Of a DNA stretch of 23,436 nucleotides, positions 1 through 15,994 are shown piece by piece. The notes beneath the pieces are model-generated. The model saw only the letters and a list, made by a program, of their open reading frames with translations, had not been told where the DNA came from and searched no databases. This DNA comes from a virus. Where the stretch lies: IMG/VR virus record IMGVR_UViG_3300031673_008658, positions 1 through 23,436 of that record. One strand, written 5' to 3'. Position numbers and translations under genes: made by a program. Within the stretch, counting starts at the first letter, position 1. Every line of letters begins with the position of its first letter.

Positions 1-363
1 ATTAAATCTAACGTTCAACATTTAAGAAATAGTATGAAAGAAGACAGAATTGATCAGATGGTGGAAGATCTACAAAATACTGATTTAAGAAAAGATTCAA
101 CAATAAAAAATACAGGCGAATATATAGAAAGAGGATCTAATTATAAGGCTCCTCAAAATCATATAAGTATTTTTGATGATAAGTTGGATTTTAGTAGAGT
201 ACCAGAAAAAACAGCAGGCGAAAAATCAGCAGAAGAATCCCGTAAAGAAAAAGACAAAGAATATGATAAGAGAAGAGTGATGTCTACAAAAAGTATGGAG
301 AATAGTTTATTTGAAAATCTTATGCAAGTAGGAAAAAAGGATGAGAAAAAAAGCTCAATTTAA
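1..363 (+). CDS. Unknown charged protein, 5' end cut by window
   Basis: The frame is open from the first base of the window. The first ATG is at 34, but ten in-frame sense codons precede it and only a poor ribosome binding site lies before it, so the true start is probably outside the window. The visible part is hydrophilic, rich in Lys, Glu, Asp and Ser, and ends in a Lys-rich tail (GKKDEKKSSI). No domain is recognised. It overlaps the next gene by 23 bases, which suggests translational coupling within the head operon. By position just upstream of a portal gene it could be the tail of a packaging or structural gene, but nothing in the residues shows this. Confidence 0.6.
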   Translation: MKSNVQHLRNSMKEDRIDQMVEDLQNTDLRKDSTIKNTGEYIERGSNYKAPQNHISIFDDKLDFSRVPEKTAGEKSAEESRKEKDKEYDKRRVMSTKSMENSLFENLMQVGKKDEKKSSI

Positions 364-1795
364 AGATATCTTGCAAGAAATAAAAAGTCTTGCAGATAGT
401 GCGAAGGCTTTAGGCGGAATTGCTCCTCAAGATATTTTGAATTCTGTATCAAATGCTGGAGCCAATACGCCTGAAATGGTAGCTAGTATTTTTGCTGGAA
501 TAGGGAAATCAATGAACGACGCAATGGGAAGTTTTACCAACTTTAATGAGAATTTAGCAGAAGCAATAAATAAATCGCAAGGCGAAGCAACAGGAGAAGC
601 AAATAAGATACAAAATAATTTATTAAATAATAATGTGGCGCTGCCAAGTGGTCAACAAGCAAACGGTCAACAAGCAGTTATTCCAATAAATGATGCAGGA
701 CAATTGGCTAACGTGCCAGGTAATGAGCAATTAGCTAATACAGCGTCTTCAAAAACAAGGAAACGAAAAATGGCTTCAAACACATTCAATTTACAGACAC
801 ACAAGAAAGCACAGTTTGGTGGCATAGAACAACCTCCTGTTGCAGATACTTCAACAGTAACTCCAGAAGTTGTTCCAGAAACTCAATCAGACAGTTTTCA
901 ACTAGACGAATTTACAGAAGACAATCCTCCTCAAACTGATCAGCTTTCACAAGATATGGGACAATTAAAAGATGGTAATGAACTTAAATTATGGTTAGAC
1001 AGCCAAGATCAAAGAGTAGCAAGAGATGTTGTATTACAAAAAGTGACAGATAAAGATAATGCGGCAGATCTTTTATCAGGTTTTTACGAAATAGCAGATA
1101 CAGAAAATGCAAAATTAGAATTTGCAACAGAATTATGGAAGATTTTACCGGATGATGTGAAAGTAGATTCTTCTGCAATTGAAGATGATGTTATTGAAGC
1201 TCCTTTGGTAGAAGCTGATGCACATCTTATTAGATTAGTAAAAGAAACCGAAGAGAAAATCAAAAAATTAGCTCAATCAAATATCAGCCCTAAAAGAAAA
1301 GAATTCAATCTCAAGAAAAGTGCTCAAGCTAAGACTACAGAAAATATGATTATGTATATGCCTAATGACAAGAGCACACTTCACCCTCAAAGAATCGATC
1401 CTTTCTTAAGACAGCCAATCAATGATTGGCATGTTGTTGAAAGAAATAAAGGTTTTGGATTGGTCTTAGATGATTACTGGAATGTCGATTGGGAATCCAT
1501 TTGGCGTGGAAATATCATGGATAAGTACAGCAGACCATATCGTGATACTAAAACGGGAGAATGGGTAGGTGGATATATCCAAAAACGTTTTGAAGTAGAT
1601 AAATGGATTCCAGAAGAAAACAATTATCAACTGCTTCCAGGACAACGTAGAAAACCTCGTCTGCCAGAATATGGGATTATAGAAGGCAGACTAGAGGAAA
1701 TGCGTAAGGCAGAAGCGAAAAAAAGAGGATACGGTCCTGTTTCAGAAGGCGAAAGTTTTAATTGGAAAGAAGCTCAAGCTAAAAAAAAAAGATAG
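341..1795 (+). CDS. Unknown head-operon protein ending in an A10 run; probable upstream part of a frameshift fusion
   Basis: The start ATG overlaps the previous gene and has AGGAAAAAAGG just before it. The 484-residue product has a Gln/Asn/Ala-rich N-terminal half with low complexity and an acidic middle (about residues 160-310). The C-terminal third is better ordered and rich in Trp, Tyr and Arg, with motifs such as NDWHVV, DDYWNVDWESIW and GEWVGGYIQKRFEVDKW. Lys-Lys-Ala-Gln motifs recur (RKKAQF at the start, HKKAQF, LKKSAQA, EAQAKKK at the end). No family is recognised. The stop lies immediately after ten consecutive A's, while the -1 frame remains open through the supposed intergenic gap into the zinc-ribbon ORF. 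I infer a single protein of about 640 residues made by frameshifting or slippage, or split by an assembly error. A virion role is inferred only from position before the portal gene. Confidence 0.75.
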   Translation: MRKKAQFKDILQEIKSLADSAKALGGIAPQDILNSVSNAGANTPEMVASIFAGIGKSMNDAMGSFTNFNENLAEAINKSQGEATGEANKIQNNLLNNNVALPSGQQANGQQAVIPINDAGQLANVPGNEQLANTASSKTRKRKMASNTFNLQTHKKAQFGGIEQPPVADTSTVTPEVVPETQSDSFQLDEFTEDNPPQTDQLSQDMGQLKDGNELKLWLDSQDQRVARDVVLQKVTDKDNAADLLSGFYEIADTENAKLEFATELWKILPDDVKVDSSAIEDDVIEAPLVEADAHLIRLVKETEEKIKKLAQSNISPKRKEFNLKKSAQAKTTENMIMYMPNDKSTLHPQRIDPFLRQPINDWHVVERNKGFGLVLDDYWNVDWESIWRGNIMDKYSRPYRDTKTGEWVGGYIQKRFEVDKWIPEENNYQLLPGQRRKPRLPEYGIIEGRLEEMRKAEAKKRGYGPVSEGESFNWKEAQAKKKR

Positions 1796-1824
1796 AAGCT
1801 GATTCTGGGACAGGATTACCAGAA
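1781..1824 (+). other. Candidate -1 frameshift or slippage site: A10 run followed by a hairpin
   Basis: Positions 1781-1790 are ten A's, read AAA AAA AAA AGA then TAG in the upstream frame. This fits the A-AAA-AAA slippery heptamer, and an A run of this length also favours polymerase slippage. TTCTGG (1803-1808) pairs with CCAGAA (1819-1824), a 6-bp stem about 12 bases after the run. The -1 frame is open from 1783 through to the stop of the next ORF at 2259. An assembly indel is the main alternative. Confidence 0.5.
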
Positions 1825-1884
1825 CCCCGTCGCCCTAAAGGATCAGGTTATTTTGAAGGCAAAAAACCTTCCTCACACGTCGTT

Positions 1885-2259
1885 ATGTCTTGCCCTATTT
1901 GTGGGGCAGTTTTAAAAACACCAATGTTAGAAAAAGGAAAGACCACAGTAGGACCAACTGGTTGTCCTAAATGCGGTCCTGATATTGTGCCTATCCCTAG
2001 CTACCAAAATGCTCCAAAACCAAAAGGCAAAGAAAAAACAGATGTAGTTGTAAGATTTGCTGAGAAAAAAAAGAAAAAGCTTCCTTTCGCACCCAAAATA
2101 CATGTTAGTGATGAGTTTGAAATGATGGAAGGTGGAATCCCAGGAGAAATACCTGGTGGAGAATTTAAAATGATTAGCGATCCTGATGCCGATAATAAAG
2201 ATGAAAAATATTTAAAACATATACGACTAACCGCTGATGATTTGGCGATTGATGGTTAA
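1885..2259 (+). CDS. Zinc-ribbon ORF, probably the 3' part of the upstream gene
   Basis: The 124 residues open with CPIC (residues 3-6) and, about 24 residues later, CPKC, a pattern typical of a small zinc ribbon. A Lys-rich linker and an acidic tail containing a GGIPGEIPGGE stretch follow. The first ATG (1885) has no ribosome binding site in front of it. The frame is open upstream to 1783 and encodes a plausible linker (for example GTGLPEPRRPKGSGYF), so I favour translation as the continuation of the 341-1795 gene after a -1 shift. Its stop is 12 bases before the portal start, whose AAGGA binding site overlaps and follows the stop codon. Function is unknown; zinc binding is inferred from the Cys spacing alone. 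Confidence 0.55.
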   Translation: MSCPICGAVLKTPMLEKGKTTVGPTGCPKCGPDIVPIPSYQNAPKPKGKEKTDVVVRFAEKKKKKLPFAPKIHVSDEFEMMEGGIPGEIPGGEFKMISDPDADNKDEKYLKHIRLTADDLAIDG

Positions 2260-2271
2260 GGATTAAAAAAA

Positions 2272-5200
2272 ATGATTAAATTCACAAAAGGTGATGACAC
2301 CCCAGAACAGAGAAGAAGGCTTGTCCATGCATCAGGTGGAGAAATTGTTGAAGGTAAAAATAAACACAAATATGCAGTCAGCACACTTTCACAAACTCCT
2401 TTAACAAAAAACTCTCAATTTGCAGGTTCAGGTGCCAACGTAATTTGGACCCAACCTATGTTCTTCTCTCCATTACATACGCCCCAAAATTGGCAAATCG
2501 CGAGTAAAAGAAGAGAAATTTATCAATGGAGTTTTGTATCACCTTGTGGCATAACGCTTTATGATGGAAGTATAATGCCAATTTCGGTAATCTATGAAGA
2601 ATCCCAACCGATATCTACTTCTTCTCTTCTAATAGCTGACGACAGAATTCGTATTGATTTACCTAATATAAAAGTACAAGATGGTCACGGTAATTTAGTT
2701 AAGCCGGATAGAGCCAGTAAAAAATGGGCAAAGAAAAAAATAAATAAAATAAAAGTTTTAGGTGGTGCTGAATCCTTAGTTGTCACAAATGACCATAATT
2801 GTATGGTTATAAAAAAAGAAGATGTTGTATGCAAAAAGAACAAATGGAATGCCAAAAAGTGCATTTGTAATTATAATGCTCCAACCTGTAAAAGAGCAAA
2901 ATGTCAAGAATATATAAATAAAGAATATAATATTTCTACACTCAAAGCAAAAGACATAGAGAAAGGCGATTATCTTTTAGTCTCTTTTACGACAGAAGTT
3001 ATTAAGAGTATTATCACCTCTGAAGAAGAAGCTAGGTATGCAGGTCATTTAGCTTCTGATGGTTGGGTATGTAATGGTAATAACAAAACAAATTATTTTG
3101 TATCTGGGATTTGTTTTAGCAAAAAAGAAAAGGATTATGTTTTACCTACAATTAAAAAAGTTTTTTCTCAATATGATATAAATATAGAAGAGAAAAAATC
3201 CATAAATTCTAATTGTGTTACTTTAACCGAAAATAGTGATCAACTTTATAGTATCAGAAGTTCAAATCCTTCTCTATATGATTTTTCTGTAAAAACGGTT
3301 GTTGGTAAGGGAAAAAATAAACGTTTTACAGATCAGGTAACTCTTCTTAATCCCAAATTACAATTACATGTTTTAGGTGCATATATCCAATCTGATGGGA
3401 CATTTAATAAAGCCAATAAATGTGTAGAAATAACTACTTATTCTCCTAACCTTGCTAATCAGTTAGTATTAATGTGTTATCGTTGTGGAATATTAGCAAG
3501 AGTTAATAAACAACCTATAAGTTCAAGCAAAACAACTTTTTCTACAGATAATTCATATAGATATATTGTTAATATTTCTTCTTCTGAGTGCGAAAAAATT
3601 GCTCAATATGTGCCTGGGAAAGTTTTAGGGCAGGAAACAAAAAAAGCTAGACATAATAAAAGATTCTTTTGGAAGAATTTTGTTGTAACTCCTGTTATTT
3701 CTAATATATCAGAAGATTATGAAGGATATGTATATGACGTTAGAGTTCCAGGAACATATACAGTTACAGCTAATGGAATTGCATGCCATCAATCAAGATT
3801 CTACTACGAGAATGAGCCAAAAATCGCCGCAGGCATAGATTTTTATTGCTTTACACCACAAATGCAAGTATTAATGGAGAATGGAACCCAAAAAGCTATA
3901 TCTTCTATAAAAGAAGGTGACACAGTAAGATGCCATGATGGGTCTGTAGGAGTAGTGTCTAAAGTGCATACCAGAAATGCCAAGGAAGATATATATAATA
4001 TAAAAATACATGGTATTAAAAATATTCTTAGAGTTACAGCAGGACACGAAATTTTTGTTCAAAGAAATAATAAAAATATTTGGCAACAAATTTATCAATT
4101 AAAAAAAACAGATAGTCTTCTAACCCCTATCGATAATGTTAGAAACAGTTATATAGCAAGAAAAATTAAAAATATAAAAATAGAAAAATATGAAGGACCG
4201 GTTTTTGATCTAACCATTGAAGGTTCTCATACATATGTGGTTAATCGCGTGTCTGTGCATAACTCCGGCTTCCCGATGAATGGGTTCAAATTTGAATGTA
4301 AAGATAGAAAAATATTAAATTTTTATGACAGACTTGCAGAACGTATAAGACTTAATCATTGGCTTAAACTATTGTCATTTGAATATTACTTATTAGGAGA
4401 CGTTTTCCCGTTCGTGGAATATGAATGTTCACGCTGCGGTGGAGGAGGATACACAAAAAACAACGAAATATGTTATCATCCTGGCGGAACGATAAAAAGA
4501 ATTACAGTTATGAATCCTGATTGGATTACTGTACATGATAATCCAATGACAAAAGAGGCTGTATATTTCCTAGAACCTGATGATGAACTCAAAGGTATTA
4601 TTGCAAACAAAGAACCTAGAGAAGTTTATGATAGACTTCCTCCATTACTTATTCAGGCTGTAATGTCAGGACAACCTATCCAATTATCCAATAGATGCAT
4701 GAGTCATATGAAACATAATGCATCACCATATGGAACTTATGGCAATTCTATTGTACGTCGTATGTTTACGTATCTTGCGTATAAAACAAAACTAATGACT
4801 GCAAACTGGATTGTTGCAGAACGACTAATTTTGCCTATTAGAGTTGTAAAGGTTGGCGAAAAGGATAGACCAGCAAGCCAAGAAGATCTTTCTGATATCT
4901 CAAATCAATTAGCAGCAGTAGCTAATGATCCCAATTTAACACTAATCACTCACCACGCTTTCTGTCATGACAATAAGACAGAGGTTCTGACAGATGAGGG
5001 ATGGAAAAAACATGACGAATTGAATCATAATGAAAAAATTATGGTTTTTGATCCTAATACAGAAAATTGTAGATATGAAAAACCTATAAAATATCATGAA
5101 TTTGATTATGATGGCGAAATGGTTAAAATATCTGGAAATAAATATGATATGATGATTACTCCGAATCATCGCATGTTAAGATATAAAAGAAATAAAAAGC

Positions 5201-7668
5201 AATGGTATGTTGAAACTGCTGAAAAATTTGCATCAAGAAATGAGAGTGATAGATATATCAGATCATTCGCTGATTATAAAGCCAAAGATTTAGAGGAGAT
5301 CAATGTATGTGGATATAAGGTGCCTATCGATGATATGCTGGAGTTTTTAGGTTGGTATTTAAGCGAAGGACATTCAGAATATAAGCCGCTTAAAAGACGT
5401 TATATTGTTTCTGTATCTCAAAGTCCAACTCATAACCCCCAATATTGTGAAGAAATAGATAATTGTTTTAGCAAAATAGATATTCCTTTTCATAAATATG
5501 AATATGAAGGAAGAAGTACAACATGGAATATTTTGAAAAAGGATATAGCAAAACAGATAGGAGAATGGTTTGGGCATACTGCTTTTGACAAGAAAATTCC
5601 TTCTTTTATTAAAAACCTTCCACCGCATAGATTAAGAATTCTAATTAATTCCTATTGTAAAGGAGACGCTAGTTGGTATCACTGTGAATCTTCTGAATAT
5701 GTTCAGTGTGGCACAGTAAGCAATCAATTAGCTGATGATCTGTTGGAGATTATGTTCAAGGCTGGTTTCTCCCCAACAATTAGTCGATTTGGAAAAGAAA
5801 ATCAATACGTAGTAAATTGTAATTTATCTTCTGTTGGAAAAGGTAGGTTTAGTAGGGTGAAAGATAACCATATTAGCAAAAAACATTACAAAGGAAAAGT
5901 TTGGTGTTTTACAACTTCTACTGGTTTCTTTGTTACGAGAAGAGAAGGACGTATAGCAATACAAGGTAATTCATACGATTGGGTCGGGGCAACGGGCAAG
6001 ATTCATAGTATTACAAATGAACTAGAACAAATTGGTAAAGAATTACTTGATGGTTTTATGTTAAACCAAGCACTATTAAACGGGGAAATGGGGTGCCATG
6101 ACGAACAAACTTTAACTCTTACAGATAAAGGTTTTAAGAAATACGATCAAATTAGTGTAGAAGATAAAATCGCTTGTTATAATCCAACAACGAAAAAATT
6201 AGAATACCATCTTTATGCACAAAAACATGTATATGATTATGATGGGGATATGATACAATTTAAAGATAAAAATATAGATATTTGTGTAACACCTAACCAT
6301 AGGATGTATGTAAAAGAAAAAGAATCCGGTCATTTTGAATTTACAACTGCCGACAAAATAAAGAAAAAAGGTAAAATTATAAATTTCAATGAATTTTGGG
6401 ACAAAAAATATAAAAACAGATATCAACGCATAACATCTATTCAACATGTTCCGTATAAAGGTAAGGTATATTGTTTTTCAGTTCCTCATGGTTTATTTGT
6501 AACTAAACGTAAAGATAAAATCACGATACAAGGTAACAGTTACGGTGGTGCTCAGGTTGGTGTAGAAGTTATGATTCGTAGATTAGATAGTTGGAGATCT
6601 TCTTTATCAGAATGGGTAGAAAAGAACATCCTTCTTCCTGTTGCTATGATGCAAAACTTTATCGATATAGAAAAGTCAGAAGAAGCAGGAGAAACTTTAT
6701 ATTTATATCCAAGAATTAAATGGAATGACTTAAACTTACGAGATAAAACAAATTATAGACAGACCTTGATACAGCTTTATGACCATGGTATCGTTTCTAC
6801 TCAAACATTACTAGAAGAATTTGATCTTGATTATGATCAAGAAACTCGCAGAAGAAGAGAAGAACAAATAATTACATCAGCAGCCGGAATGGTTATGCCA
6901 GGTGGCGGTGGAATGCCAGGAGCAATGCCAGGTGGCGGAATGCCAATGGATATGGGCATGGGCGGCATGGGTGGTATGCCAGGTGGAGATATGGGTATGG
7001 GCGGCATGGGTGGTATGCCAGGTGGTGATATGAGCGGCGGTATGGGGGGAATGCCAGGTGGAGAGATGGGTGGTGGAATGGCAGCAGGAGCTACACCTGA
7101 TATCAAAGTAGGGAAAAGAGGTTCAGGTGGAAAAAGTTTAGAAGAACAAATGCCCAAAGCTCCTATGCCTAAAACGGTTAGGCTAACTTCACTAGAACAG
7201 AAAATGTTCAAATTATTGCAGGGGATGTCTAATAATGTTCCTTATAAGTTATTCGGACAATATGCTGTACAAATGCCTGGAGCACAACAGCCATTCTTAA
7301 TTGATTTTGCTTATCCATCTGTGGGTGTAGGAGTCGAAGCGGACGGTGATAAGTGGCATTCGGATTTAGAGAGTAGAGCGAAAGATTCAAAAAGAGATCA
7401 AAAACTTGCTAGTGTAGGATGGAGAATTCTCAGATTTAATGAAAAAGCATTTGATCGAGTAGCAGACATGCAGAAGATAATTTATGATAATTTGGCAGAA
7501 GCCACTAAAGAAAGGCAATCGAGAATGAAGACAGCTTCAACAAATGAAGAAATGCTAAAACAAACAACTCGATTATTAACTTTTGAAGGAATTAATGAAA
7601 AAGATTTGAAAGTTAAAAGAATACCACTTCCAAATGATTTGGGGGATGTTTTCTTAATTGGAAATTAA
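2272..7668 (+). CDS. Portal protein precursor with four inteins and a nuclease-like C-terminal domain
   Basis: The portal forms the dodecameric ring at the head vertex through which DNA is packaged. The 1798-residue reading frame alternates portal-like segments with four inteins (residues 92-507, 526-664, 898-1233, 1275-1422). Every junction has an intein Cys1 and a downstream Ser. Joining the exteins gives a smooth sequence, for example SFVSP-SRFYYENEP, GIDFY-SGFPMNGF, THHAF-SYDWVGA and NGEMG-SYGGAQ. Portal-like features are the stretch around KHNASPYGTYGNSIVRRM, the SYDWVGATGKIHSI segment and the following long helices. A CSRCGGGG segment lies between inteins 2 and 3. After about residue 1540 come a Gly/Met-rich repeat linker and a Vsr/DUF559-like domain. 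The start has TTAAGGATT about 8 bases upstream. The spliced product would be about 759 residues, within the range of large-phage portals. The portal call rests on sequence character and gene order, not on a search. Confidence 0.75.
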   Translation: MIKFTKGDDTPEQRRRLVHASGGEIVEGKNKHKYAVSTLSQTPLTKNSQFAGSGANVIWTQPMFFSPLHTPQNWQIASKRREIYQWSFVSPCGITLYDGSIMPISVIYEESQPISTSSLLIADDRIRIDLPNIKVQDGHGNLVKPDRASKKWAKKKINKIKVLGGAESLVVTNDHNCMVIKKEDVVCKKNKWNAKKCICNYNAPTCKRAKCQEYINKEYNISTLKAKDIEKGDYLLVSFTTEVIKSIITSEEEARYAGHLASDGWVCNGNNKTNYFVSGICFSKKEKDYVLPTIKKVFSQYDINIEEKKSINSNCVTLTENSDQLYSIRSSNPSLYDFSVKTVVGKGKNKRFTDQVTLLNPKLQLHVLGAYIQSDGTFNKANKCVEITTYSPNLANQLVLMCYRCGILARVNKQPISSSKTTFSTDNSYRYIVNISSSECEKIAQYVPGKVLGQETKKARHNKRFFWKNFVVTPVISNISEDYEGYVYDVRVPGTYTVTANGIACHQSRFYYENEPKIAAGIDFYCFTPQMQVLMENGTQKAISSIKEGDTVRCHDGSVGVVSKVHTRNAKEDIYNIKIHGIKNILRVTAGHEIFVQRNNKNIWQQIYQLKKTDSLLTPIDNVRNSYIARKIKNIKIEKYEGPVFDLTIEGSHTYVVNRVSVHNSGFPMNGFKFECKDRKILNFYDRLAERIRLNHWLKLLSFEYYLLGDVFPFVEYECSRCGGGGYTKNNEICYHPGGTIKRITVMNPDWITVHDNPMTKEAVYFLEPDDELKGIIANKEPREVYDRLPPLLIQAVMSGQPIQLSNRCMSHMKHNASPYGTYGNSIVRRMFTYLAYKTKLMTANWIVAERLILPIRVVKVGEKDRPASQEDLSDISNQLAAVANDPNLTLITHHAFCHDNKTEVLTDEGWKKHDELNHNEKIMVFDPNTENCRYEKPIKYHEFDYDGEMVKISGNKYDMMITPNHRMLRYKRNKKQWYVETAEKFASRNESDRYIRSFADYKAKDLEEINVCGYKVPIDDMLEFLGWYLSEGHSEYKPLKRRYIVSVSQSPTHNPQYCEEIDNCFSKIDIPFHKYEYEGRSTTWNILKKDIAKQIGEWFGHTAFDKKIPSFIKNLPPHRLRILINSYCKGDASWYHCESSEYVQCGTVSNQLADDLLEIMFKAGFSPTISRFGKENQYVVNCNLSSVGKGRFSRVKDNHISKKHYKGKVWCFTTSTGFFVTRREGRIAIQGNSYDWVGATGKIHSITNELEQIGKELLDGFMLNQALLNGEMGCHDEQTLTLTDKGFKKYDQISVEDKIACYNPTTKKLEYHLYAQKHVYDYDGDMIQFKDKNIDICVTPNHRMYVKEKESGHFEFTTADKIKKKGKIINFNEFWDKKYKNRYQRITSIQHVPYKGKVYCFSVPHGLFVTKRKDKITIQGNSYGGAQVGVEVMIRRLDSWRSSLSEWVEKNILLPVAMMQNFIDIEKSEEAGETLYLYPRIKWNDLNLRDKTNYRQTLIQLYDHGIVSTQTLLEEFDLDYDQETRRRREEQIITSAAGMVMPGGGGMPGAMPGGGMPMDMGMGGMGGMPGGDMGMGGMGGMPGGDMSGGMGGMPGGEMGGGMAAGATPDIKVGKRGSGGKSLEEQMPKAPMPKTVRLTSLEQKMFKLLQGMSNNVPYKLFGQYAVQMPGAQQPFLIDFAYPSVGVGVEADGDKWHSDLESRAKDSKRDQKLASVGWRILRFNEKAFDRVADMQKIIYDNLAEATKERQSRMKTASTNEEMLKQTTRLLTFEGINEKDLKVKRIPLPNDLGDVFLIGN
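2545..3792 (+). mobile_element. Intein 1 in portal (416 aa), LAGLIDADG endonuclease, ends in Gln
   Basis: It starts at Cys92 (CGITLYDGSIMPIS), has a block B Thr-x-x-His (T172, H175), and ends with a YDVRVPGTYTVTANGIACHQ block F/G before Ser508. Two LAGLIDADG motifs are visible: YAGHLASDG (about 256-264) and LGAYIQSDG (about 368-376), with Asp263 and Asp375 as the acidic residues. The last residue is Gln instead of the usual Asn, with the penultimate His (506) kept. A Cys-rich insert (Cys187, 197, 199, 206, 211) lies within the splicing domain after block B and may bind metal. The element should excise itself from the portal precursor and may cut an intein-less allele. Confidence 0.93.
3847..4263 (+). 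mobile_element. Intein 2 in portal (139 aa mini-intein)
   Basis: It starts at Cys526 (CFTPQMQVLMENG), has block B T589-x-x-H592 (VTAGHEIF), block F around GPVFDLTIEGSHTYVV and a canonical VHN end before Ser665. At 139 residues it contains only the splicing (Hint) fold, with no endonuclease. Only 18 extein residues separate it from intein 1. All expected splicing residues are present, so it should be active. Confidence 0.93.
4963..5970 (+). mobile_element. Intein 3 in portal (336 aa), LAGLIDADG endonuclease, Gly-Asn end
   Basis: It starts at Cys898 (CHDNKTEVLTDEGW), has block B TPNH (T963, H966) and ends IAIQGN before Ser1234. The endonuclease motifs are FLGWYLSEG (about 1025-1033, Glu1032) and LINSYCKGD (about 1124-1132, Asp1132). 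The penultimate residue, normally His, is Gly. Natural inteins lacking this His are known and can still splice. The splicing blocks closely resemble those of intein 4 downstream, so the two are paralogues or came from related invasions. Confidence 0.93.
6094..6537 (+). mobile_element. Intein 4 in portal (148 aa mini-intein), paralogue of intein 3
   Basis: It starts at Cys1275 (CHDEQTLTLTDKGF), has block B TPNH (T1340, H1343) and ends ITIQGN before Ser1423. The N-terminal and C-terminal blocks align directly with intein 3 (shared CHD, LTD, YDGxM, TPNHRM, KGKV.CF, FVT.R and IQGN), but the endonuclease is absent. Only 41 extein residues separate it from intein 3. I infer descent from the same family with endonuclease loss. 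Confidence 0.93.
6892..7080 (+). repeat. Gly/Met-rich tandem repeat linker in the portal
   Basis: Imperfect tandem units of about 39 bases encode a 13-residue repeat of the form MGMGGMGGMPGGD, flanked by looser MPGGG units (about residues 1541-1603). Two adjacent units are nearly identical at DNA level, and a third is diverged. The segment probably forms a flexible tether between the portal body and the C-terminal domain. Such repeats are prone to expansion and contraction and to assembly error. Confidence 0.85.
7186..7506 (+). other. Vsr/DUF559-like nuclease-type domain at the portal C-terminus
   Basis: Residues about 1639-1745 match the core pattern of Vsr and DUF559 proteins of the PD-(D/E)xK fold. 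FLIDFAY supplies an Asp (D1678). GVEADGDKWH follows (E1689, D1691, H1696). A KRDQKL element (R1708, D1709) and a GWRILRF strand complete the pattern. All the acidic positions expected from these families are present, so it is not obviously dead. Whether it cuts DNA, binds DNA or plays a structural role cannot be told from sequence. Confidence 0.7.
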
Positions 7669-7670
7669 TT

Positions 7671-8135
7671 ATGAATAAATTCAATTTAAAAGAACAGAAA
7701 GCTACTGAAGATTTTTTAGAAAAATTAGAAAAGATAGCCGGACCCAGAAAGATTAAAGATAGGCACATAAGATGGCAAGAAGTGTATGGAGAAAGATCTG
7801 AGCACTTAAAAGAAAGATTTGATGAAGAAATTGGTCCTGGTGCTTATTACAGATGGGACGGTCATGATTATACAACAAATTCTGATTATTTTATTGTTGT
7901 TGGACCGGCTATTGATCCTCATGGGAAAAAAGCATTCTTTTCTGGTATAAAAAAACTACCTCCAATAGAAAAAAGAAAAAAAATATATGCTCCTTATGGA
8001 GAATATTTTCCTTCCATTATGTCAGCATTAAGTCATGCAAACCAAAAATGGGGATCACCTATTCCTCAAGGTCAACATAATTACTCTGTAGCAGAGTTAG
8101 CTAATATTAAAATCCCAAGGCACATAAAGGGTTAA
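7671..8135 (+). CDS. Unknown 154-aa protein after the portal
   Basis: It starts 2 bases after the portal stop, with GGAAATTAATT before the ATG, so it is probably translated from the portal transcript. The N-terminal 45 residues are charged and helical. The centre has aromatic and Gly-rich stretches (GPGAYYRWDGHDYTT, YFIVVGPAIDPHGKKAFF), and the C-terminus is mixed. No Cys, signal peptide or membrane segment is seen and I recognise no family. Its place between the portal and protease genes suggests a head or head-tail component, as an inference from position only. Confidence 0.7.
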   Translation: MNKFNLKEQKATEDFLEKLEKIAGPRKIKDRHIRWQEVYGERSEHLKERFDEEIGPGAYYRWDGHDYTTNSDYFIVVGPAIDPHGKKAFFSGIKKLPPIEKRKKIYAPYGEYFPSIMSALSHANQKWGSPIPQGQHNYSVAELANIKIPRHIKG

Positions 8136-8158
8136 ATTAATAAAGGACTTTTTTGGTA

Positions 8159-8188
8159 TTTACTGAAGTAAGGGGTATCGGATATAGT
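8159..8188 (+). promoter_or_regulatory. Possible sigma70-like promoter before the protease-scaffold gene
   Basis: TTTACT (8159-8164) and TATAGT (8183-8188) are separated by 18 bases, with 4/6 and 5/6 matches to the consensus boxes. They lie in a 78-base gap with no terminator. The downstream gene has AAGGAAA about 12 bases before its ATG. In an AT-rich genome such matches arise by chance. Confidence 0.3.
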
Positions 8189-8213
8189 CTAAACATTTAA
8201 GGAAATTATAAAG

Positions 8214-11200
8214 ATGGCTATGATTAAAAAAGCTCTTTATTCTGTCATATCTATTGAAGCATTAAATGAACCCTATAAATGGAAAGAATTTAATTTTAAT
8301 CAAGTAAAATTCGCATCTATAGCGAAAGATGATGTGATTAATATAGGTGGTTTTGATTTAAAATCAGCTATAAGTGAAAATCCAGATCATCTTTTTGTTA
8401 AAATATTTGCAATTAAAAAAGATGAAATTAATGATAATGGTGATGCTTTTTCGGAAGAAGAACTTAAAAAAGGTGCTCATACATTTATCGGCGTTCCTAT
8501 TTTTACGAATCATCAAAACGATGATGTTGAAAAAGCAAGAGGCAAATGTGTACATGCATGGTATGACCAGAATGCTGGTGGAATTTATATTATTTCTATG
8601 ATAGATAAAGTAGCATATCCGCAGCTTGCTAGAGGAATAAAACAGGGATATATTTCTGGTACTAGTATGGGGACATCAGTAGAATATTCCTGTTGTTCTA
8701 TTTGCCATAATAAAGCTCATACAGCAGAAGAATATTGTTCTTGTGTAAAGGAAAGAAAAAATAGAAAATTTAGTGGTAAAGTAAAATGTACTTATCATAA
8801 TAGCCAATCAAAACCAGATGATGATTGCCCTATTTGCGGCAAGAAAAAAGGTGAATCTAAGGAAATAGAATATAAAGAAGCTCAGGTTTTTGAACATAAC
8901 TTCGGTCTTAAGTTCATCGAAGATAGTTTTGTAGTAAACCCTGCATGTCATGACTGTTTAGTACAAGAAATTTTTAATATAGACGAACTAGATAAGAAAG
9001 TAGCAAACCTAAAAAAACAAACTGACAAACTTCTCAAAGCCGCTTCATGCCAAACTGGTAAATGCGATTTAGAAAAGCATGCAGGAAAACAAGAAATTGA
9101 AGATTTAAAAAATGCGATGAATACGATTGAGCGTGTTGCGAAAAGCATGATGTCTCAAAAAGATCATGTTTCTATGGAATATGTTAGCGACCTGGTTGAA
9201 GTTATGGCAAATGTACAATCTGTTACGGATGAGCTTGTAGAAATGGGATACATGCAATTGGCTTCTCCTGTTATCGGGGAAGAATCAGTTGAAATGCCTA
9301 AAACGAGTACAGAAACATCCTTAGAAGCACCGCCACAAATGGAAACACAGCCACAAACTGGACAGTTTGAAACCCCAACTGGGAATGTAGTTGAAAACTT
9401 AGGTGGCATAGGAAGTATAACCAAACCTAAATTTTCAGCAAAATTAAAAGAAAAAAAGAAGGATTTTATACGTTTATCATCTAATTTAATAGACAGGTTG
9501 CAATCTCTAAGACAATTTCTCAATGAGACTGTAACTATTGCTAATTCAGAAGTCAATGATAAGGAGTATTCAGAAATGGATAATATGAAAACTGGACAAA
9601 ATCAGGTAGATGCTCAAAAGACTGCCGAACATGATTTAAATGTCATTACGGAAAAGCAATTGCCTGATGCCGAGTTTACTGGTAAAAGACAAGGGACTGC
9701 TCCCAATGTCATTACCGAAAAACAACTTAATGATCCAAGAGATGTTAATGTAACAACTTCTAAATCCCCACAAGAACGTTTGGGATCATATGATGTTATT
9801 ACTGAGAAACAACTCAGTAGCATCAAAGAAGGTTATGTTACTCGATGGGATACCTTTCCTGCTGTTATTACAGAAAAACAATGGGAAGAGACAAACCGTA
9901 TGATTGGATCTGAATTAAGTAGAGATCAATCCAATATTATCACAGAAAAACAATTAATTGATTTTCTTGGTCATCACCGTTATGTTCCTGCTAATGTTAT
10001 TACAGAAAAACAACTGAGTGACGATAGTAGGACAACTACTGGTGATCTTTCTCGTTGGGCATATACATATGATGCTTCAAGGCTTCTTAAGGCTGCTAGT
10101 GAAGCGGTTTCAGATGCCATCGCGTTTTATGGTAAAACCCCTCAAGAACTTAAGAGAACATCTTCTGTTCTAACAGAGAATGTTAGAAACGCTGACAAAG
10201 CAGCATATCTTGTACTAATAAATGCATTGCCTCATAAGGCTGCTGCTAGAAACGATGATAAGGTAAGATACAATTACTTATCAAAACTGGCTGATACAAA
10301 TGTTCCTACTCCTTCAACAACTGACGTGCTTATTGCCAGTATGAGTGATAAGTTAGAAGATCTTAGTGCTGATGATCTTATTCAGACAGTACAATATGTA
10401 GTAAACAATGAAAAAGCTTTGAATATTGCATCAGAATTAGCTAAAATAAAATTACAATCTGGTCCATCAATTGGTCAAACTGTTGATAAGTTTGCTGCAC
10501 TTGACAAGGCCGTTAATGAAATGTCTAAAGAAGCAGACGGTCTTTATCAGATCAATATTGCTGCTAAAGATATTGGAATGGAACCAGTAAAAAATGGTAA
10601 GTTCCTTAAAGCGGCCCATAAATGTGCTGAATCTTTAATTGGCTTAGATATCAAAACCGCTTTGATGAAGCTTGATGTTTCCGAAGACAAAGAGAATATT
10701 ACAGCAACACTTAAGGATGTTGATAAATTAAATGGCGAAGAAAAGAAAGCTTGGAGTGGGATTCTTGATCTTATAAGAAAAGATGATAAAGCTCCTCTCG
10801 ATTTAGACGATGAATCTCCTCTTGGTTTAGGTGGTGATGAAGAATGTGTAGAGTGTGAAGAAGACGGATTGCCATCTTTGAAAGAATTGCTTAGAGAATA
10901 CGGTGATGATGAAGTATTAGATGGAGAGGGAGGAGAAGAAGAATTGGACGAAAATGGTAATCCTGTTGATGTTGTTGATAATACCAAAGAAGAAGATATG
11001 AAATATATGGATACTGCTGCACCTGGAATGGCAAACATGTTCTCGACTATGGCTTCCCGTAAAGGAAAGAGAGAAGATTTGGTTAAGACAGCACAAGATG
11101 CCATGTTTGGTGGTGGCCCAGCCGGTCAAGCTGGTGCTGCCCCTGGAATTGGTCAACCAGCCGGTGCCGTTCCTCAAGCAGGTGGAGCAGCCGGTGCTCC

Positions 11201-14200
11201 TCTCGAAAGCTTTGAACAATCTGATATGGGTGAAGAATTTGGAGACGAAGGTGCAAGTGATCTACAACCGTCCCCTCCAGGTACTAAGTGTCCTGTATGT
11301 TCATCTGATGATGTAACGGTGAGTGATGGCAAGGGTGTTTGTGGCAATTGTGGCTCAAAGGTAAACTATAAGGTTGTTTTGGAAGTTGTAGAATGGGCCG
11401 GTTTACTAGAAGATTCTCAAGACGCAAAAGAAGAGGAAGAAAAAGACGAATTTGGTGGTGAAGGTTTTGAAATGCCAACCGAAGAAGCTGCTCCAATGCC
11501 AGGTGCCGGTCTTGCCGGTGCTGGTGGTGCTCCTACTGCACCAGCTATGCCAGCAGCAGCATCTACAAAGAATAATACCATGGTAAAAGAAGCTGGAGTG
11601 AGAGTCAAAAAATTTGCTACAGTAGCACAAATTACACCTATTATTGCTAACAAAATGAAAAAAGACAATATTAAACTAGGTTCGGTAAGTCCATTAACCG
11701 GATCAGTAAATACGATAGACCTTGGCGATGGCAAACATCTATGTCTCGATACCGGACATGCATATCATCTAAGATTTGCATTCAACAAAAACAAGCCTAA
11801 AGAAGTTTATGCTGAATGGTCCTGGGATCCAAATGTAGATGCCGAATGTCCTTCTTGCACAAGACGTAAACAAGATTTTGTAAACGCTCTTGGTAAGATG
11901 AATATATCGGAAGAAGAATTCGACGGAATGTCTCTCAAGACAAAATCCGAAACAATAATTTCCATGAAGAGTGCCGGTCTTCTTAAGAACACAAAAGTTG
12001 CTTCCGCAGAAGACGATGTTGTTGCACAAATGGTTAAGAAAGCAGAAGGAAGACTCGGAAACCGATTCCCAATGGAAACTTGTCTAGAGAAGTTAGCTCG
12101 TCGTTATGGCGAAGATGCACTTGCTCTTAGCGGTCCATGTGAGGGGAAGCCATTAGCCAACTGTATCTGTGAAACATTGAAAAAAGCTGGTGTTTACTCT
12201 GACAACACACTGTTCAAGGTTGCTGACATTTGGAGTGAAAAAGAAGCTGGTATTGAATGTATCGAAGACCATGTAAGAATGGGATTTGATCTTAAGGAAT
12301 CCGCTGTTGCTTGTGAAGGCATTAAAACCAAATATGCCCAAAACTCTGATATATTAGCAGAAAAACTAGCTCAACTAGCTATGGAAGAAGATGTAGCCGA
12401 ACCTGGATTGGGTGGTGGAGTCATTGAAGAAGAAACAGAAGAAATAGATCCATTTGCAGATGAAGAAGTTAGTGTTGATGAACTTGGTGATAGTGAAGTT
12501 GATGAAGGAAGGGGTGGTGGAGAGAATACAGTAACAATTAATATTCCAGCCAATGTACTGGAACAACTAGATAGAGCTATTGATGAAGCAACTGGTGAAA
12601 ATGTAGAAGATGAACTTCATCATCAAGAACCTGTTCCTAATATGGATGTTGATGTTGAAGTTCCAGCAGATGCTGCTGAAGCAGTCGATGAGGCTGCTGA
12701 TACCGCATTAGATCAAACAATGGATGTTGAACCAAATATTGAAGAAGAAGCGGCTCAAGAAGAAAGTTTTGGGGGTGATGAACCTGTTGTAGAGGAAGAG
12801 GTTGGAGTTGAAGGCGATCTTCCTGTTGATGAAACAGTTGTAGAAGAAACCGAAGATTGCGGAATGGCCCCAATGGATGCCGGATCAGTAGAAGTTGAAA
12901 TAGAAGATGATGGATTTGGTGGAAACGGTGAAGTTGATGAAGTTGGAGAAGAAAGTAGAGTGCAAAAGTTAGAAAGAAGAGTAGAAGAATTAACAAGAAA
13001 AGTAGAAGGTAAAGAAAAAACAGAAAATAAAGAACCTGGTGTTAGAGATGGAACTGGTCCAAGAGGAGGTAGTGAAGAATGCCCATTTAATAAAAACGTA
13101 GAAAATAAAGAAGGAGAAAATGAAGATAAATCAAATAATGATGAAGACAAAGAAGTTGTTCCAGAAGAACAAGGCGAATTTAAAGAAGGCGAAGATATGG
13201 AGACAAGTGCAATGTCTGAACAAGAATTCGAAAAAGAAGCCACTGCAATGAGAAGAGGACACATTAGTTCTGTCGGCAAAATGGGATTAGATCTCAGCAA
13301 GGTTGCCGAAGTTCTCAAGAAGGCTGGCGTAATTAAGTTAAGAAATGCACAAGACTCTGTACCTTTTACATATACAAATAATAGTGTTATCGGCGATGAA
13401 GATAAATTCAAAGCTGATGACCCTTCCGCCCCAAGTAAGGGTGATGCATCGAAGATGGGTCAAGAGGAGCCACCTTCAGCAAATAAACCAGACATCCCTG
13501 TTGCTGATGCAAGAATGGGTGGAGAAAAGGGCGAAAGTGATTTGAAACCAGAATTAGACGATAGTGCCACTGGTGGTATAGATGGAGCCGGAAATTCAAA
13601 GGCTGCTTCTACAAGAGATATGATGAATGGTCTAGCAGATCGAATCATCGAAGCTCAAACTCAAATCCAGAGAAAACAAGATCAGGATTTAGAGGAAGTG
13701 AAACCATACGGTGGAAATAGTTGGATTGGAAATGAAAAGGAAAGTATTGGAGAAATACCAAAAGCCAATATTAGACCAAAACAAGTTCCAATAACCAATA
13801 ATGCGTTTATCGGTGACGAAAAAGCCTCTATAGGTGATAAACCATCCGATAACGACACCCCTAACATTCCTACTAAGGATGACAGGATTGGTGGAGAAAA
13901 AGATAACGACAAGATTAAACCAGAACATGATAACGAAATGACTGGATTAGTAAACTCCGGTACTGTTCTAGCGGAGTCCAAGACTAATATCAAAGAAGCA
14001 TCTAGAGTCGCTGGCAAAATGCTTCAAGCTGGAAGAATCCAGCCAGAAGATCTTGCAAGCAAAATTGCAGAGCTACAAAGATATCAGCCCGAACAACTTA
14101 AAGATTTCGAAGATGCAATCTTTTCGAACAACAAAGGACTCAATAATGTACCAGACGGGATAGAGCAACCCGTAATCATTCATGAAGCAAGTAACCAACG

Positions 14201-14315
14201 AAATGCACAAAATGAGTTGGCCCACAAACTTCAGAGTTTATTCTCTTTGAATAAGCAAAATGTACTTGCTCAACAGGATACTGTCAACGAGTTAAGACGA
14301 TTAACTCGTGGCTAA
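8214..14315 (+). CDS. Prohead protease fused to a very long acidic scaffold-like protein
   Basis: Residues about 45-160 resemble the HK97-type prohead protease (peptidase U35): GDAFSEEELKKG, then PIFTNH with catalytic-type His100, then GYISGTSMG with the probable nucleophile Ser151. A Cys/His cluster follows (CSICHNKAH, YCSC, CPIC, ACHDC; about 161-248), then helical regions. Six VITEKQL repeats span residues 477-601. Beyond these are further helices, an Ala/Gly/Pro-rich stretch, a zinc ribbon (CPVC at 1026-1029 and CGNC), a Cys-containing helical region, a strongly acidic segment (about residues 1385-1660) with a short coiled coil, and a C-terminal repeat block. At 2033 residues it is far longer than usual separate protease (about 200) and scaffold (200-400) proteins. 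I infer a self-processed protease-scaffold precursor that supports head assembly and is cleaved during maturation. The start is the first ATG (8214); ATG 8220 is equally possible. Confidence 0.75.
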   Translation: MAMIKKALYSVISIEALNEPYKWKEFNFNQVKFASIAKDDVINIGGFDLKSAISENPDHLFVKIFAIKKDEINDNGDAFSEEELKKGAHTFIGVPIFTNHQNDDVEKARGKCVHAWYDQNAGGIYIISMIDKVAYPQLARGIKQGYISGTSMGTSVEYSCCSICHNKAHTAEEYCSCVKERKNRKFSGKVKCTYHNSQSKPDDDCPICGKKKGESKEIEYKEAQVFEHNFGLKFIEDSFVVNPACHDCLVQEIFNIDELDKKVANLKKQTDKLLKAASCQTGKCDLEKHAGKQEIEDLKNAMNTIERVAKSMMSQKDHVSMEYVSDLVEVMANVQSVTDELVEMGYMQLASPVIGEESVEMPKTSTETSLEAPPQMETQPQTGQFETPTGNVVENLGGIGSITKPKFSAKLKEKKKDFIRLSSNLIDRLQSLRQFLNETVTIANSEVNDKEYSEMDNMKTGQNQVDAQKTAEHDLNVITEKQLPDAEFTGKRQGTAPNVITEKQLNDPRDVNVTTSKSPQERLGSYDVITEKQLSSIKEGYVTRWDTFPAVITEKQWEETNRMIGSELSRDQSNIITEKQLIDFLGHHRYVPANVITEKQLSDDSRTTTGDLSRWAYTYDASRLLKAASEAVSDAIAFYGKTPQELKRTSSVLTENVRNADKAAYLVLINALPHKAAARNDDKVRYNYLSKLADTNVPTPSTTDVLIASMSDKLEDLSADDLIQTVQYVVNNEKALNIASELAKIKLQSGPSIGQTVDKFAALDKAVNEMSKEADGLYQINIAAKDIGMEPVKNGKFLKAAHKCAESLIGLDIKTALMKLDVSEDKENITATLKDVDKLNGEEKKAWSGILDLIRKDDKAPLDLDDESPLGLGGDEECVECEEDGLPSLKELLREYGDDEVLDGEGGEEELDENGNPVDVVDNTKEEDMKYMDTAAPGMANMFSTMASRKGKREDLVKTAQDAMFGGGPAGQAGAAPGIGQPAGAVPQAGGAAGAPLESFEQSDMGEEFGDEGASDLQPSPPGTKCPVCSSDDVTVSDGKGVCGNCGSKVNYKVVLEVVEWAGLLEDSQDAKEEEEKDEFGGEGFEMPTEEAAPMPGAGLAGAGGAPTAPAMPAAASTKNNTMVKEAGVRVKKFATVAQITPIIANKMKKDNIKLGSVSPLTGSVNTIDLGDGKHLCLDTGHAYHLRFAFNKNKPKEVYAEWSWDPNVDAECPSCTRRKQDFVNALGKMNISEEEFDGMSLKTKSETIISMKSAGLLKNTKVASAEDDVVAQMVKKAEGRLGNRFPMETCLEKLARRYGEDALALSGPCEGKPLANCICETLKKAGVYSDNTLFKVADIWSEKEAGIECIEDHVRMGFDLKESAVACEGIKTKYAQNSDILAEKLAQLAMEEDVAEPGLGGGVIEEETEEIDPFADEEVSVDELGDSEVDEGRGGGENTVTINIPANVLEQLDRAIDEATGENVEDELHHQEPVPNMDVDVEVPADAAEAVDEAADTALDQTMDVEPNIEEEAAQEESFGGDEPVVEEEVGVEGDLPVDETVVEETEDCGMAPMDAGSVEVEIEDDGFGGNGEVDEVGEESRVQKLERRVEELTRKVEGKEKTENKEPGVRDGTGPRGGSEECPFNKNVENKEGENEDKSNNDEDKEVVPEEQGEFKEGEDMETSAMSEQEFEKEATAMRRGHISSVGKMGLDLSKVAEVLKKAGVIKLRNAQDSVPFTYTNNSVIGDEDKFKADDPSAPSKGDASKMGQEEPPSANKPDIPVADARMGGEKGESDLKPELDDSATGGIDGAGNSKAASTRDMMNGLADRIIEAQTQIQRKQDQDLEEVKPYGGNSWIGNEKESIGEIPKANIRPKQVPITNNAFIGDEKASIGDKPSDNDTPNIPTKDDRIGGEKDNDKIKPEHDNEMTGLVNSGTVLAESKTNIKEASRVAGKMLQAGRIQPEDLASKIAELQRYQPEQLKDFEDAIFSNNKGLNNVPDGIEQPVIIHEASNQRNAQNELAHKLQSLFSLNKQNVLAQQDTVNELRRLTRG
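9642..10016 (+). repeat. Six VITEKQL repeats in the scaffold region
   Basis: The motif (V/I)ITEKQ(L/W) begins at residues 477, 499, 528, 551, 575 and 595, spaced 20-29 residues with unrelated sequence between. The codons differ between copies (for example ACG, ACC, ACT and ACA for Thr), so conservation is at protein level. The I-T-E core fits the (L/I)-x-E cleavage pattern known for the T4 prohead protease, which makes these candidate maturation cleavage sites. A binding motif for a capsid or core protein is the alternative. Confidence 0.85.
13380..13946 (+). repeat. Two-copy IGDE...GGEK repeat in the C-terminal scaffold region
   Basis: Copy one (13380-13575) and copy two (13800-13946) share NxxIGDE at the start, a Pro-rich middle with PDIP or PNIP, then R(M/I)GGEK, KPE and a D..(A/M)TG end. 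A partial copy (NSWIGNEKESIGEIP) lies at about 13719-13757. The copies are diverged at DNA level, so this is an old internal duplication kept for its protein sequence. Confidence 0.7.
14287..14309 (+). other. 9-bp hairpin at the end of the scaffold gene
   Basis: ACGAGTTAA (14287-14295) pairs perfectly with TTAACTCGT (14301-14309) across a 5-base loop. It lies in the last codons of the protease-scaffold gene, and no T tract follows, so it is not a standard terminator. It may protect or mark the 3' end of the upstream message. Confidence 0.6.
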
Positions 14316-14318
14316 AAA

Positions 14319-14334
14319 CAGTAAAGTTTTACTG
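14319..14334 (+). other. Inverted repeat overlapping the decoration gene's ribosome binding region
   Basis: CAGTAAA (14319-14325) and TTTACTG (14328-14334) form an inverted repeat whose last base is the first G of the GGGAG ribosome binding site of the next gene. It could act as an RNA stem tuning initiation, or as a processing site. Confidence 0.5.
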
Positions 14335-14346
14335 GGAGATTAAATA

Positions 14347-14916
14347 ATGGCATTGATTGAAATTTATCACGTTGTTGCAGATATGTACGACGTTGATCCT
14401 GACAGCACCACAACTTATGAAGAAGGTGAATTCGCAAGACTGACTACTTCCGGTACAAATGTTTACGCTACTGTAGATAACGCCTCAGGTAACGCTATCG
14501 GTGTATTGGCTGACACAAAAAGTACTTCCGCCATTGGTGCAGGTACTCCATACGCAGCTAATCTAATCGTCAACGCAAATGGTGCTACTCGTTCGACTCA
14601 GAACAGAGTTAGTGACTATTTTGATGAAACCGTAGGTTCCGGAAAAGTAACTATCTATAACAGTGGCGGAAAGTTTGCTACCGATATGTACGAAACTCTT
14701 GATGGAGCAGCACCTGTAAGTTATACGGTTGGTGCTGTGTTAGAAACAAGTGCTAATGGAAGGCTTTGCCCAACTACGTTTTCTACACATAGTGGTCAAA
14801 CAGTTGCTCGTTGTGTAGACAATCCAAAAGCATGGACATCCGGTGTTCCAGGTACGGATACTACTGATAACAGTATTAGTCTTGGAACATATATTACGTT
14901 CTTACTACTTATCTAA
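14347..14916 (+). CDS. Probable capsid decoration (cement) protein
   Basis: The 189-residue product is rich in Thr, Ser, Gly, Ala and Val with alternating hydrophobic residues, as expected for a beta-rich surface protein, and has few Lys. Its leader, GGAGATTAAATAATGGC, is the same as that of the major capsid gene downstream, which suggests matched high expression. A gene between the protease/scaffold and the major capsid protein is the usual place for a decoration or stabilisation protein of lambda gpD type, but no specific family motif is recognised. It has two Cys residues (in RLCP and VARCVD) and a hydrophobic end (TYITFLLLI). A minor capsid or head-fibre protein is an alternative. Confidence 0.6.
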   Translation: MALIEIYHVVADMYDVDPDSTTTYEEGEFARLTTSGTNVYATVDNASGNAIGVLADTKSTSAIGAGTPYAANLIVNANGATRSTQNRVSDYFDETVGSGKVTIYNSGGKFATDMYETLDGAAPVSYTVGAVLETSANGRLCPTTFSTHSGQTVARCVDNPKAWTSGVPGTDTTDNSISLGTYITFLLLI

Positions 14917-14950
14917 AAAGAAAACGCTAGAACAGTGTTATATTTGTAAT

Positions 14951-14976
14951 CTTAGGCTTGTTTTGCAAGATCTAAG
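14951..14976 (+). other. Hairpin in the leader of the major capsid gene
   Basis: CTTAG (14951-14955) pairs with CTAAG (14972-14976), and CTTG (14957-14960) pairs with CAAG (14966-14969), around a 5-base loop with a small internal loop. It lies 17 bases before the AAAGGAG ribosome binding site of the capsid gene. It may be a processing or stability element; it has no T tract, so termination is unlikely. Confidence 0.5.
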
Positions 14977-15005
14977 GAACAAGTATTTCCAAAGGAGATT
15001 AAATA

Positions 15006-15878
15006 ATGGCTATCAATAAAAATGGCTTAACTGACAAAGAAAAAGAGATGATCATTGAAGCTGCTTTGAACACAGACGAGGGGCGTGTTGCACTAGCTCA
15101 AGCTATGGTCGAACCTATTCGTAGATCGTTAGAGTATCAAGCTGTAGGTCGTAAACTGCTTATGGTTGACGAACTGCCACAAGGTGCTCTTGCAAGATAC
15201 GAAAGGGACGTAGCCTCTGTTGCACACGTCGTTTCTCGTCGTGGTGCAGTCCCTGATCAAATCCAAGAAGGCGAAGAGATCTTAGTCCCTACCTTCGAAA
15301 TCGCTGCTCACCCAACAGTACGTCTAAGTGAAATTAAAGCACGAAGATTCTATATTGTTGATAGAGCACAAATTAAAGCAAAAGAAGCAATCCAAAAAGA
15401 AGAAGATACAAACATTTTCAACGCTTTGATTGCAGCCGCTGTAAACAACGGTAACCAAATCGTTTACAACATGGGCGATTTAACAGTTAACTCCCTCAAC
15501 ACAGCTTACCGCTATATTGAGGCACATGACCTTGTAACTACAAAGGTGGTTATGCATGCAAACCAATTTGCAGCAGTCAGAGTATTCGGTAAAGAGTTCT
15601 TCGATGAAGCAACTCAGAGAGAAATCATCACAACCGGTCTTTACGGCCACCTATGGACTGCCGATATTCACGTATCCTCACGTATGAATACCGAAGTAGT
15701 CCTGGTTGTAGCTTCCCCTGATACAGTTGGTGCATTCCCTGTAAGACAAGATATTACAGTGCTGCCTGCTGACGATCCCAAGAAGCTCCGACTCGGTTGG
15801 GTGATATACGAGGAAATAGGGATTTGTATTGTCAATGATTATGCAGTATCCCTCGTAGAAGTTAACAGTAGCTCATAA
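15006..15878 (+). CDS. Major capsid protein, HK97 fold
   Basis: This is the shell subunit of the head. The 290 residues begin with a helical segment, followed by RRSLEYQAVGRKLL, an E-loop-like charged region with RRGAVPDQIQEGEEILVP, then HPTVRLSEIKARRF and the long spine-like helix AKEAIQKEEDTNIFNALIAA. A P-domain and A-domain core follows (ATQREIITTGLYGHLW, TVGAFPVRQDITVLPADD, YEEIGICIVNDYAVSLVEV). These are characteristic of short HK97-fold capsid proteins without a long N-terminal scaffolding arm, consistent with a separate scaffold upstream. AAAGGAGATTAAATA before the ATG is the best ribosome binding site of the plus-strand block. Codons end in C more often than in neighbouring genes, as expected for high expression. 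A strong terminator follows. Confidence 0.88.
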   Translation: MAINKNGLTDKEKEMIIEAALNTDEGRVALAQAMVEPIRRSLEYQAVGRKLLMVDELPQGALARYERDVASVAHVVSRRGAVPDQIQEGEEILVPTFEIAAHPTVRLSEIKARRFYIVDRAQIKAKEAIQKEEDTNIFNALIAAAVNNGNQIVYNMGDLTVNSLNTAYRYIEAHDLVTTKVVMHANQFAAVRVFGKEFFDEATQREIITTGLYGHLWTADIHVSSRMNTEVVLVVASPDTVGAFPVRQDITVLPADDPKKLRLGWVIYEEIGICIVNDYAVSLVEVNSSS

Positions 15879-15965: not shown

Positions 15966-15994
15966 TTGTGTTTTCTATTAGTAAGTGCTATAAT
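15966..15994 (+). promoter_or_regulatory. Extended -10 promoter for the homing endonuclease gene
   Basis: TATAAT (15989-15994) is a perfect -10 box preceded by TGC, which makes an extended -10. TTGTGT (15966-15971) is a weak -35 at the ideal 17-base spacing. Transcription would start near 16001, right at the AAAAGGAGA ribosome binding site, and therefore downstream of the GTG at 15968. Confidence 0.6.

Follow-up and report, generated by a model that had tools for sequence, protein, structure and literature searches.

A probable transcriptional slippage site beside the portal gene in uncultured phages related to Bacillus phage G

How is a phage gene read that ends just past ten consecutive A's while the -1 frame stays open behind the same run: as two genes, as one gene broken by an indel, or as one gene with two products, one short and one extended? 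The locus in question lies in a complete IMG/VR record of 23,436 bases (here called the window, that is, the whole stretch of DNA analyzed), which is perhaps a piece of a larger genome. The major capsid protein of the window is 52% identical to the capsid protein of Bacillus phage G (Donellivirus), and the group from which the window comes is a family of relatives of that phage, none of them cultured. In the window, the gene that carries the run (hereafter, the slippage gene) is followed in succession by the portal gene, a protease-containing ORF, and the capsid gene.

The junction and its extension

A sequence-only reading of the window had described a run of ten A's with a stop soon after it and a -1 frame open across the run, and this description proved accurate (Table 1). 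The run is the sole stretch of nine or more A's within the 23.4-kb window and is read in frame as GCT AAA AAA AAA AGA TAG. The -1 frame opens directly after a TAA at 1780 to 1782, and given the stops in the 0 and +1 frames, both of the frames that do not lead into the extension close at once. Joining the two ORFs takes either one additional A (eleven) or two fewer (eight). The sequence-only reading had supposed that nine or eleven A's would give an intact ORF; this holds for eleven, but nine A's fail to join the frames. It had also taken an intact eleven-A ORF as evidence against recoding. Such ORFs do occur in relatives, but there they support slippage, given that the run is kept and the other frames are closed nearby.

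Table 1. Features of the slippage gene and its surroundings in the window
Feature	Position	Strand	Remarks
0-frame ORF, 484 aa, predicted short form	341..1795	+	Variable N-terminal part, conserved C-terminal domain, end KKKR-stop
Domain common to all relatives	1388..1705	+	WRGNIMDKYSRPYRD...GGYIxKRFEVD...NNxQLxPG; from alignments of relatives
Candidate slippage run, A10	1781..1790	+	A9-A11 at the equivalent junction in 56/58 relatives and 14/14 held-out contigs
-1 frame extension, ~156 aa past the run	1783..2259	+	Would be entered after insertion of one A or after a ribosomal slip of -1
0-frame stop, TAG	1793..1795	+	Terminates the short form
+1-frame stop, TGA	1800..1802	+
Zinc ribbon, CPIC-x20-CPKC	1891..1974	+	Found also in the alignment of relatives' extensions
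Portal protein gene with inteins	2272..7668	+	Directly 3' of the extension

Could the extension instead belong to a second, separate gene that starts at position 1885? An ATG is present there, but the sequence ahead of it, cttcctcacacgtcgtt, contains no Shine-Dalgarno, in agreement with the earlier claim that this start lacks a ribosome binding site. Furthermore, conserved coding begins upstream of this ATG. The supposed gap between the two ORFs had been called protein-like, and the relatives bear this out: upstream of the first codon at which translation could start, the extension frame (-1, or 0 in the in-frame relatives) has a pN/pS of 0.37, which denotes purifying selection, and the differences in this stretch number 107, 79, and 201 at the first, second, and third codon positions (from pairs that are not all independent). 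Several relatives have no usable start ahead of the zinc ribbon; in one of them (L078) the whole -1 ORF is devoid of ATG, GTG, and TTG, and in three others (L061, L063, and L039) a start codon occurs only close to the end of the ORF. In addition, seven relatives carry a single continuous ORF. These comparisons indicate that translation passes through the junction into the extension. The start-less relatives, together with selection upstream of the first ATG, exclude a separate downstream gene, a reading to which we assign almost no probability.

Conservation of the run among relatives

Searching IMG/VR with the conserved domain yielded 25 relatives, and searching with its alignment yielded 58. 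All but two of them (56 of 58) have a run of nine to eleven A's where the window has its A10. The exceptions are L085, which is uninformative for the junction because its contig ends before it, and L080, which has A7, an in-frame zinc ribbon, and a second frame break within the conserved domain. This region of L080 (4200-4400) suggests either a copy in decay or an assembly prone to indels. Once near-copies were removed, 49 non-redundant genomes remained, the window included, and in these the extension lies in the -1 frame 42 times, in the 0 frame 7 times, and in the +1 frame never. The 42 shifted genomes have A9 (11 genomes), A10 (29), or A11 (2), and the 7 in-frame genomes have A10 (3) or A11 (4). 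As a held-out test, scans with a divergent alignment added 14 further homologous contigs (about 12 non-redundant), every one of which has A9-A11 at the junction, with the extension in the -1 frame in 11, in frame in 3, and in the +1 frame in none; their unused frames are closed within 0 to 12 codons. One further candidate, L158, was rejected as a false match.

The run is kept by selection, and other coding sequence avoids such runs. In most loci the junction run is the sole run of nine or more A's; counting both strands together, one to three A9 runs occur in each of G002 (494 kb), G003 (334 kb), and G006 (170 kb), and G001 and G005 have more. Across ORFs of at least 150 aa in these loci, the other KKK tripeptides are encoded as pure AAA AAA AAA in only 2 of 104 cases. 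In a divergent clade (L083, L154, L155, L091, and others), the extension has no zinc ribbon and the A run is kept, so the slippage site is retained despite a different extension. Two peculiarities of individual contigs may be recorded here: in L083 an intein- or homing-endonuclease-like insertion (4001-6574) separates the A run from the conserved domain, and L047 has a second A10 upstream in the same ORF (4453-4462), through which the 0 frame is open. Outside this set, neither a search of genome contigs nor a tblastn search of annotated phage records with four family members found a relative, and the gp9-gp15 region near the portal of phage G contains no homologue of the slippage gene.

Is the run itself real, and is it stable? 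Long A runs are error-prone in principle, and an assembly indel had been offered as one explanation for the junction. The recurrence of the arrangement in dozens of contigs from different metagenomes excludes an assembly or sequencing error within the run, and near-identical pairs agree in run length; the chance of such an error is negligible. A different possibility is phase variation, in which run length would change during DNA replication and each phage would make only one of the two forms, short or extended. Related genomes do differ in length and frame, as this predicts (L041 has A11 and is in frame; L043 and L044 have A10 and are shifted). However, near-identical contigs from different records (97.9 to 100% identity) always have the same run length, the distribution of frames is non-random, and the frame switches at a constant A10 (between L034 and L040 and between L038 and L048). 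Based on the shared run lengths, the biased frames, and the frame changes at constant length, we consider phase variation quite improbable.

Polymerase or ribosome?

Conservation in about 60 non-redundant relatives lends strong support to the proposal that a programmed shift or slippage produces one protein in two forms, short and zinc-ribbon-extended, and on comparative grounds programmed slippage at the junction run is very likely. We consider it probable that slippage is programmed at the A10 run, with RNA polymerase realigning on the A tract and generating mRNAs with varying numbers of A's. An unslipped mRNA would yield the short protein, which terminates just past the lysines, and an mRNA lengthened by one A (or shortened by two) would yield the same protein plus ~156 residues that include the zinc ribbon. 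We infer that two protein products are made. Bacterial (specifically, enterobacterial) RNA polymerase slips on runs of at least nine A's or T's, and insertion is commoner than deletion, being at least twice as efficient on 7 to 11 A's in a lacZ assay (PMC6260861). A -1 extension in all 42 shifted genomes is what would be expected from insertion of a single A.

Might the ribosome, rather than the polymerase, do the slipping? In programmed -1 ribosomal frameshifting, tRNA-Lys would move back by one base on A_AAA_AAA or A_AAA_AAG, and some of the ribosomes would continue into the extended form. One of these heptamers is present in the right phase in every run, and for the majority of A9 sites it is A_AAA_AAG at the 3' end, the classical shift site of E. 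coli. The direction of the shift is always -1, as for ribosomal frameshifting, and the 0-frame stop often lies directly past the site. However, a ribosomal heptamer requires only 6 to 7 A's, and yet none of the 49 genomes has fewer than nine. Further, the first lysine codon at the junction is invariably AAA, whereas AAA makes up only about half of the first codons in other KKK tripeptides. Stimulators are also lacking: upstream of the run, Shine-Dalgarno sequences are not enriched (2% versus 8% in the null), and folding 0 to 12 nt past the run gives no signal across relatives. The 6-bp stem that the sequence-only reading noticed does exist in the window (TTCTGG at 1803-1808 and CCAGAA at 1819-1824), but as a stimulator it is not significant, the best local folding within 18 nt past the run having a z of +0.3. 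In vitro, ribosome sliding on A runs is robust at A11 and weak at A9-A10, the range in which most of the present sites fall (PMC4363877).

The earlier reading had named both mechanisms, and of the two we favor transcriptional slippage, given that the run is never shorter than nine A's, that its codon phase varies freely among relatives, and that there is neither a Shine-Dalgarno nor a proximal stem. Ribosomal frameshifting as the main explanation is unlikely, and a ribosomal contribution to the extended form is possible. Besides the heptamers, a weak fold signal 24 to 36 nt past the run (mean z about -1) and the A7 of L080 with its in-frame extension count against the transcriptional reading, although the L080 contig has a second frame break as well. 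Which polymerase would slip? Genes for a multisubunit RNA polymerase were not found in 10 larger records (possibly incomplete), so the host RNA polymerase is the simplest candidate; in a search for T7-type polymerases, the control itself gave no match. The threshold of nine A's is that of the enterobacterial enzyme, and the phage may use an RNA polymerase with another slippage length.

Frame flips beside the portal gene

If slippage has to produce a truncated form in the in-frame genomes too, then stops should lie close to the run there as well, and they do. The in-frame state accounts for seven independent changes on the tree, at least six of them forced by well-supported branches, and the nearest relative of an in-frame genome is mostly a -1 genome. 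In-frame genomes keep A10-A11, with stops in both other frames at 0 to 11 codons; the mean distance to the other-frame stops is 2.4 codons versus 11.7 at random positions in the same ORFs (p<1/2000). In -1 genomes the corresponding mean is 2.8 codons versus 11.4 in the null, a value unmatched in 2,000 samples. On balance, we lean toward a model in which selection keeps the A run and closes both unused frames, whatever the genomic frame, at a transcriptional slippage site beside the portal; the DNA would flip repeatedly between shifted and in-frame states with both protein forms still made, even with a different extension domain.

What might the two forms do? The conserved domain has no match in Pfam, PHROG, NCBIfam, or PDB sequence searches, and in the same searches the zinc ribbon has weak matches only. 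In the conserved domain, W39, R40, M44, D45, K46, G61, G62, Y63, and other positions are invariant in 50 aligned sequences. AlphaFold models are poor (mean pLDDT of 59 for the fused L034 protein and 60 for the domain of the window). The slippage gene has no match to tail assembly chaperone families of the G/GT type, and it lies upstream of the portal gene in all 49 genomes, with an insertion between the two in L060. From this gene position, we infer that the protein is part of the virion, and head or neck assembly beside the portal presumably requires both of its forms. In one clade, the stop of the extension appears to overlap the portal start; there, slippage could also influence portal translation.

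The neighboring genes have features of their own. Within the portal ORF lie several stretches that resemble inteins (three Intein_splicing matches, LAGLIDADG), and its C-terminal domain is nuclease-like (MTES_1575/DUF559). A 2033-aa ORF (8214-14315) combines an N-terminal head maturation protease match with repeated VITEKQL segments and a zinc-ribbon match, and a GTG-started 614-aa ORF adjoining the capsid gene (15968-17812) has a translation that by eye is homing-endonuclease-like. In the putative virion proteins (341-15878), K[KTEIV]A[QSAG] is present 16 times versus 2.8 times in shuffles. This motif, which the capsid protein lacks, might mark a cleavage site of the prohead protease.

The ribosomal frameshifts of tail chaperones are the main known instances of recoding in phage structural genes. 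Like the widely conserved lambda G/GT tail assembly chaperone (PMC5009743), the present gene would have short and -1-extended forms; unlike G/GT, whose shift is ribosomal and linked to the tape measure protein, it adjoins the portal gene and has no family match. In Bacillus phage G, for all the similarity of its capsid protein, no such gene was found near the portal. A parallel to the in-frame genomes is dnaX (tau/gamma) of Thermus thermophilus, in which slippage occurs at a run of nine and nearby stops in both other frames give a truncated form (PMC5009743). In the in-frame genomes here, too, a homopolymer is accompanied by stops that close both other frames, but dnaX is a cellular polymerase gene, whereas the extension here is mostly in the -1 frame and the frame state flips between lineages. 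In Shigella, spa13 and mxiE likewise gain a C-terminally extended product through slippage at a run of 9 to 10, which in spa13 affects the next gene too (PMC5009743; PMC6260861); those are secretion-system genes, however, and not phage genes.

The mechanism is a known one, and it is the gene family and its setting that are new; a search of open-access papers yielded no report of this slippage gene or site. Gene callers split the slippage protein in most genomes. The repeated frame flips constitute a natural experiment in which selection for slippage can be set against selection for one particular frame. If our reading is true, a stuttering polymerase can set the proportions in which two forms of a portal-adjacent protein are made across a deep group of uncultured phages.
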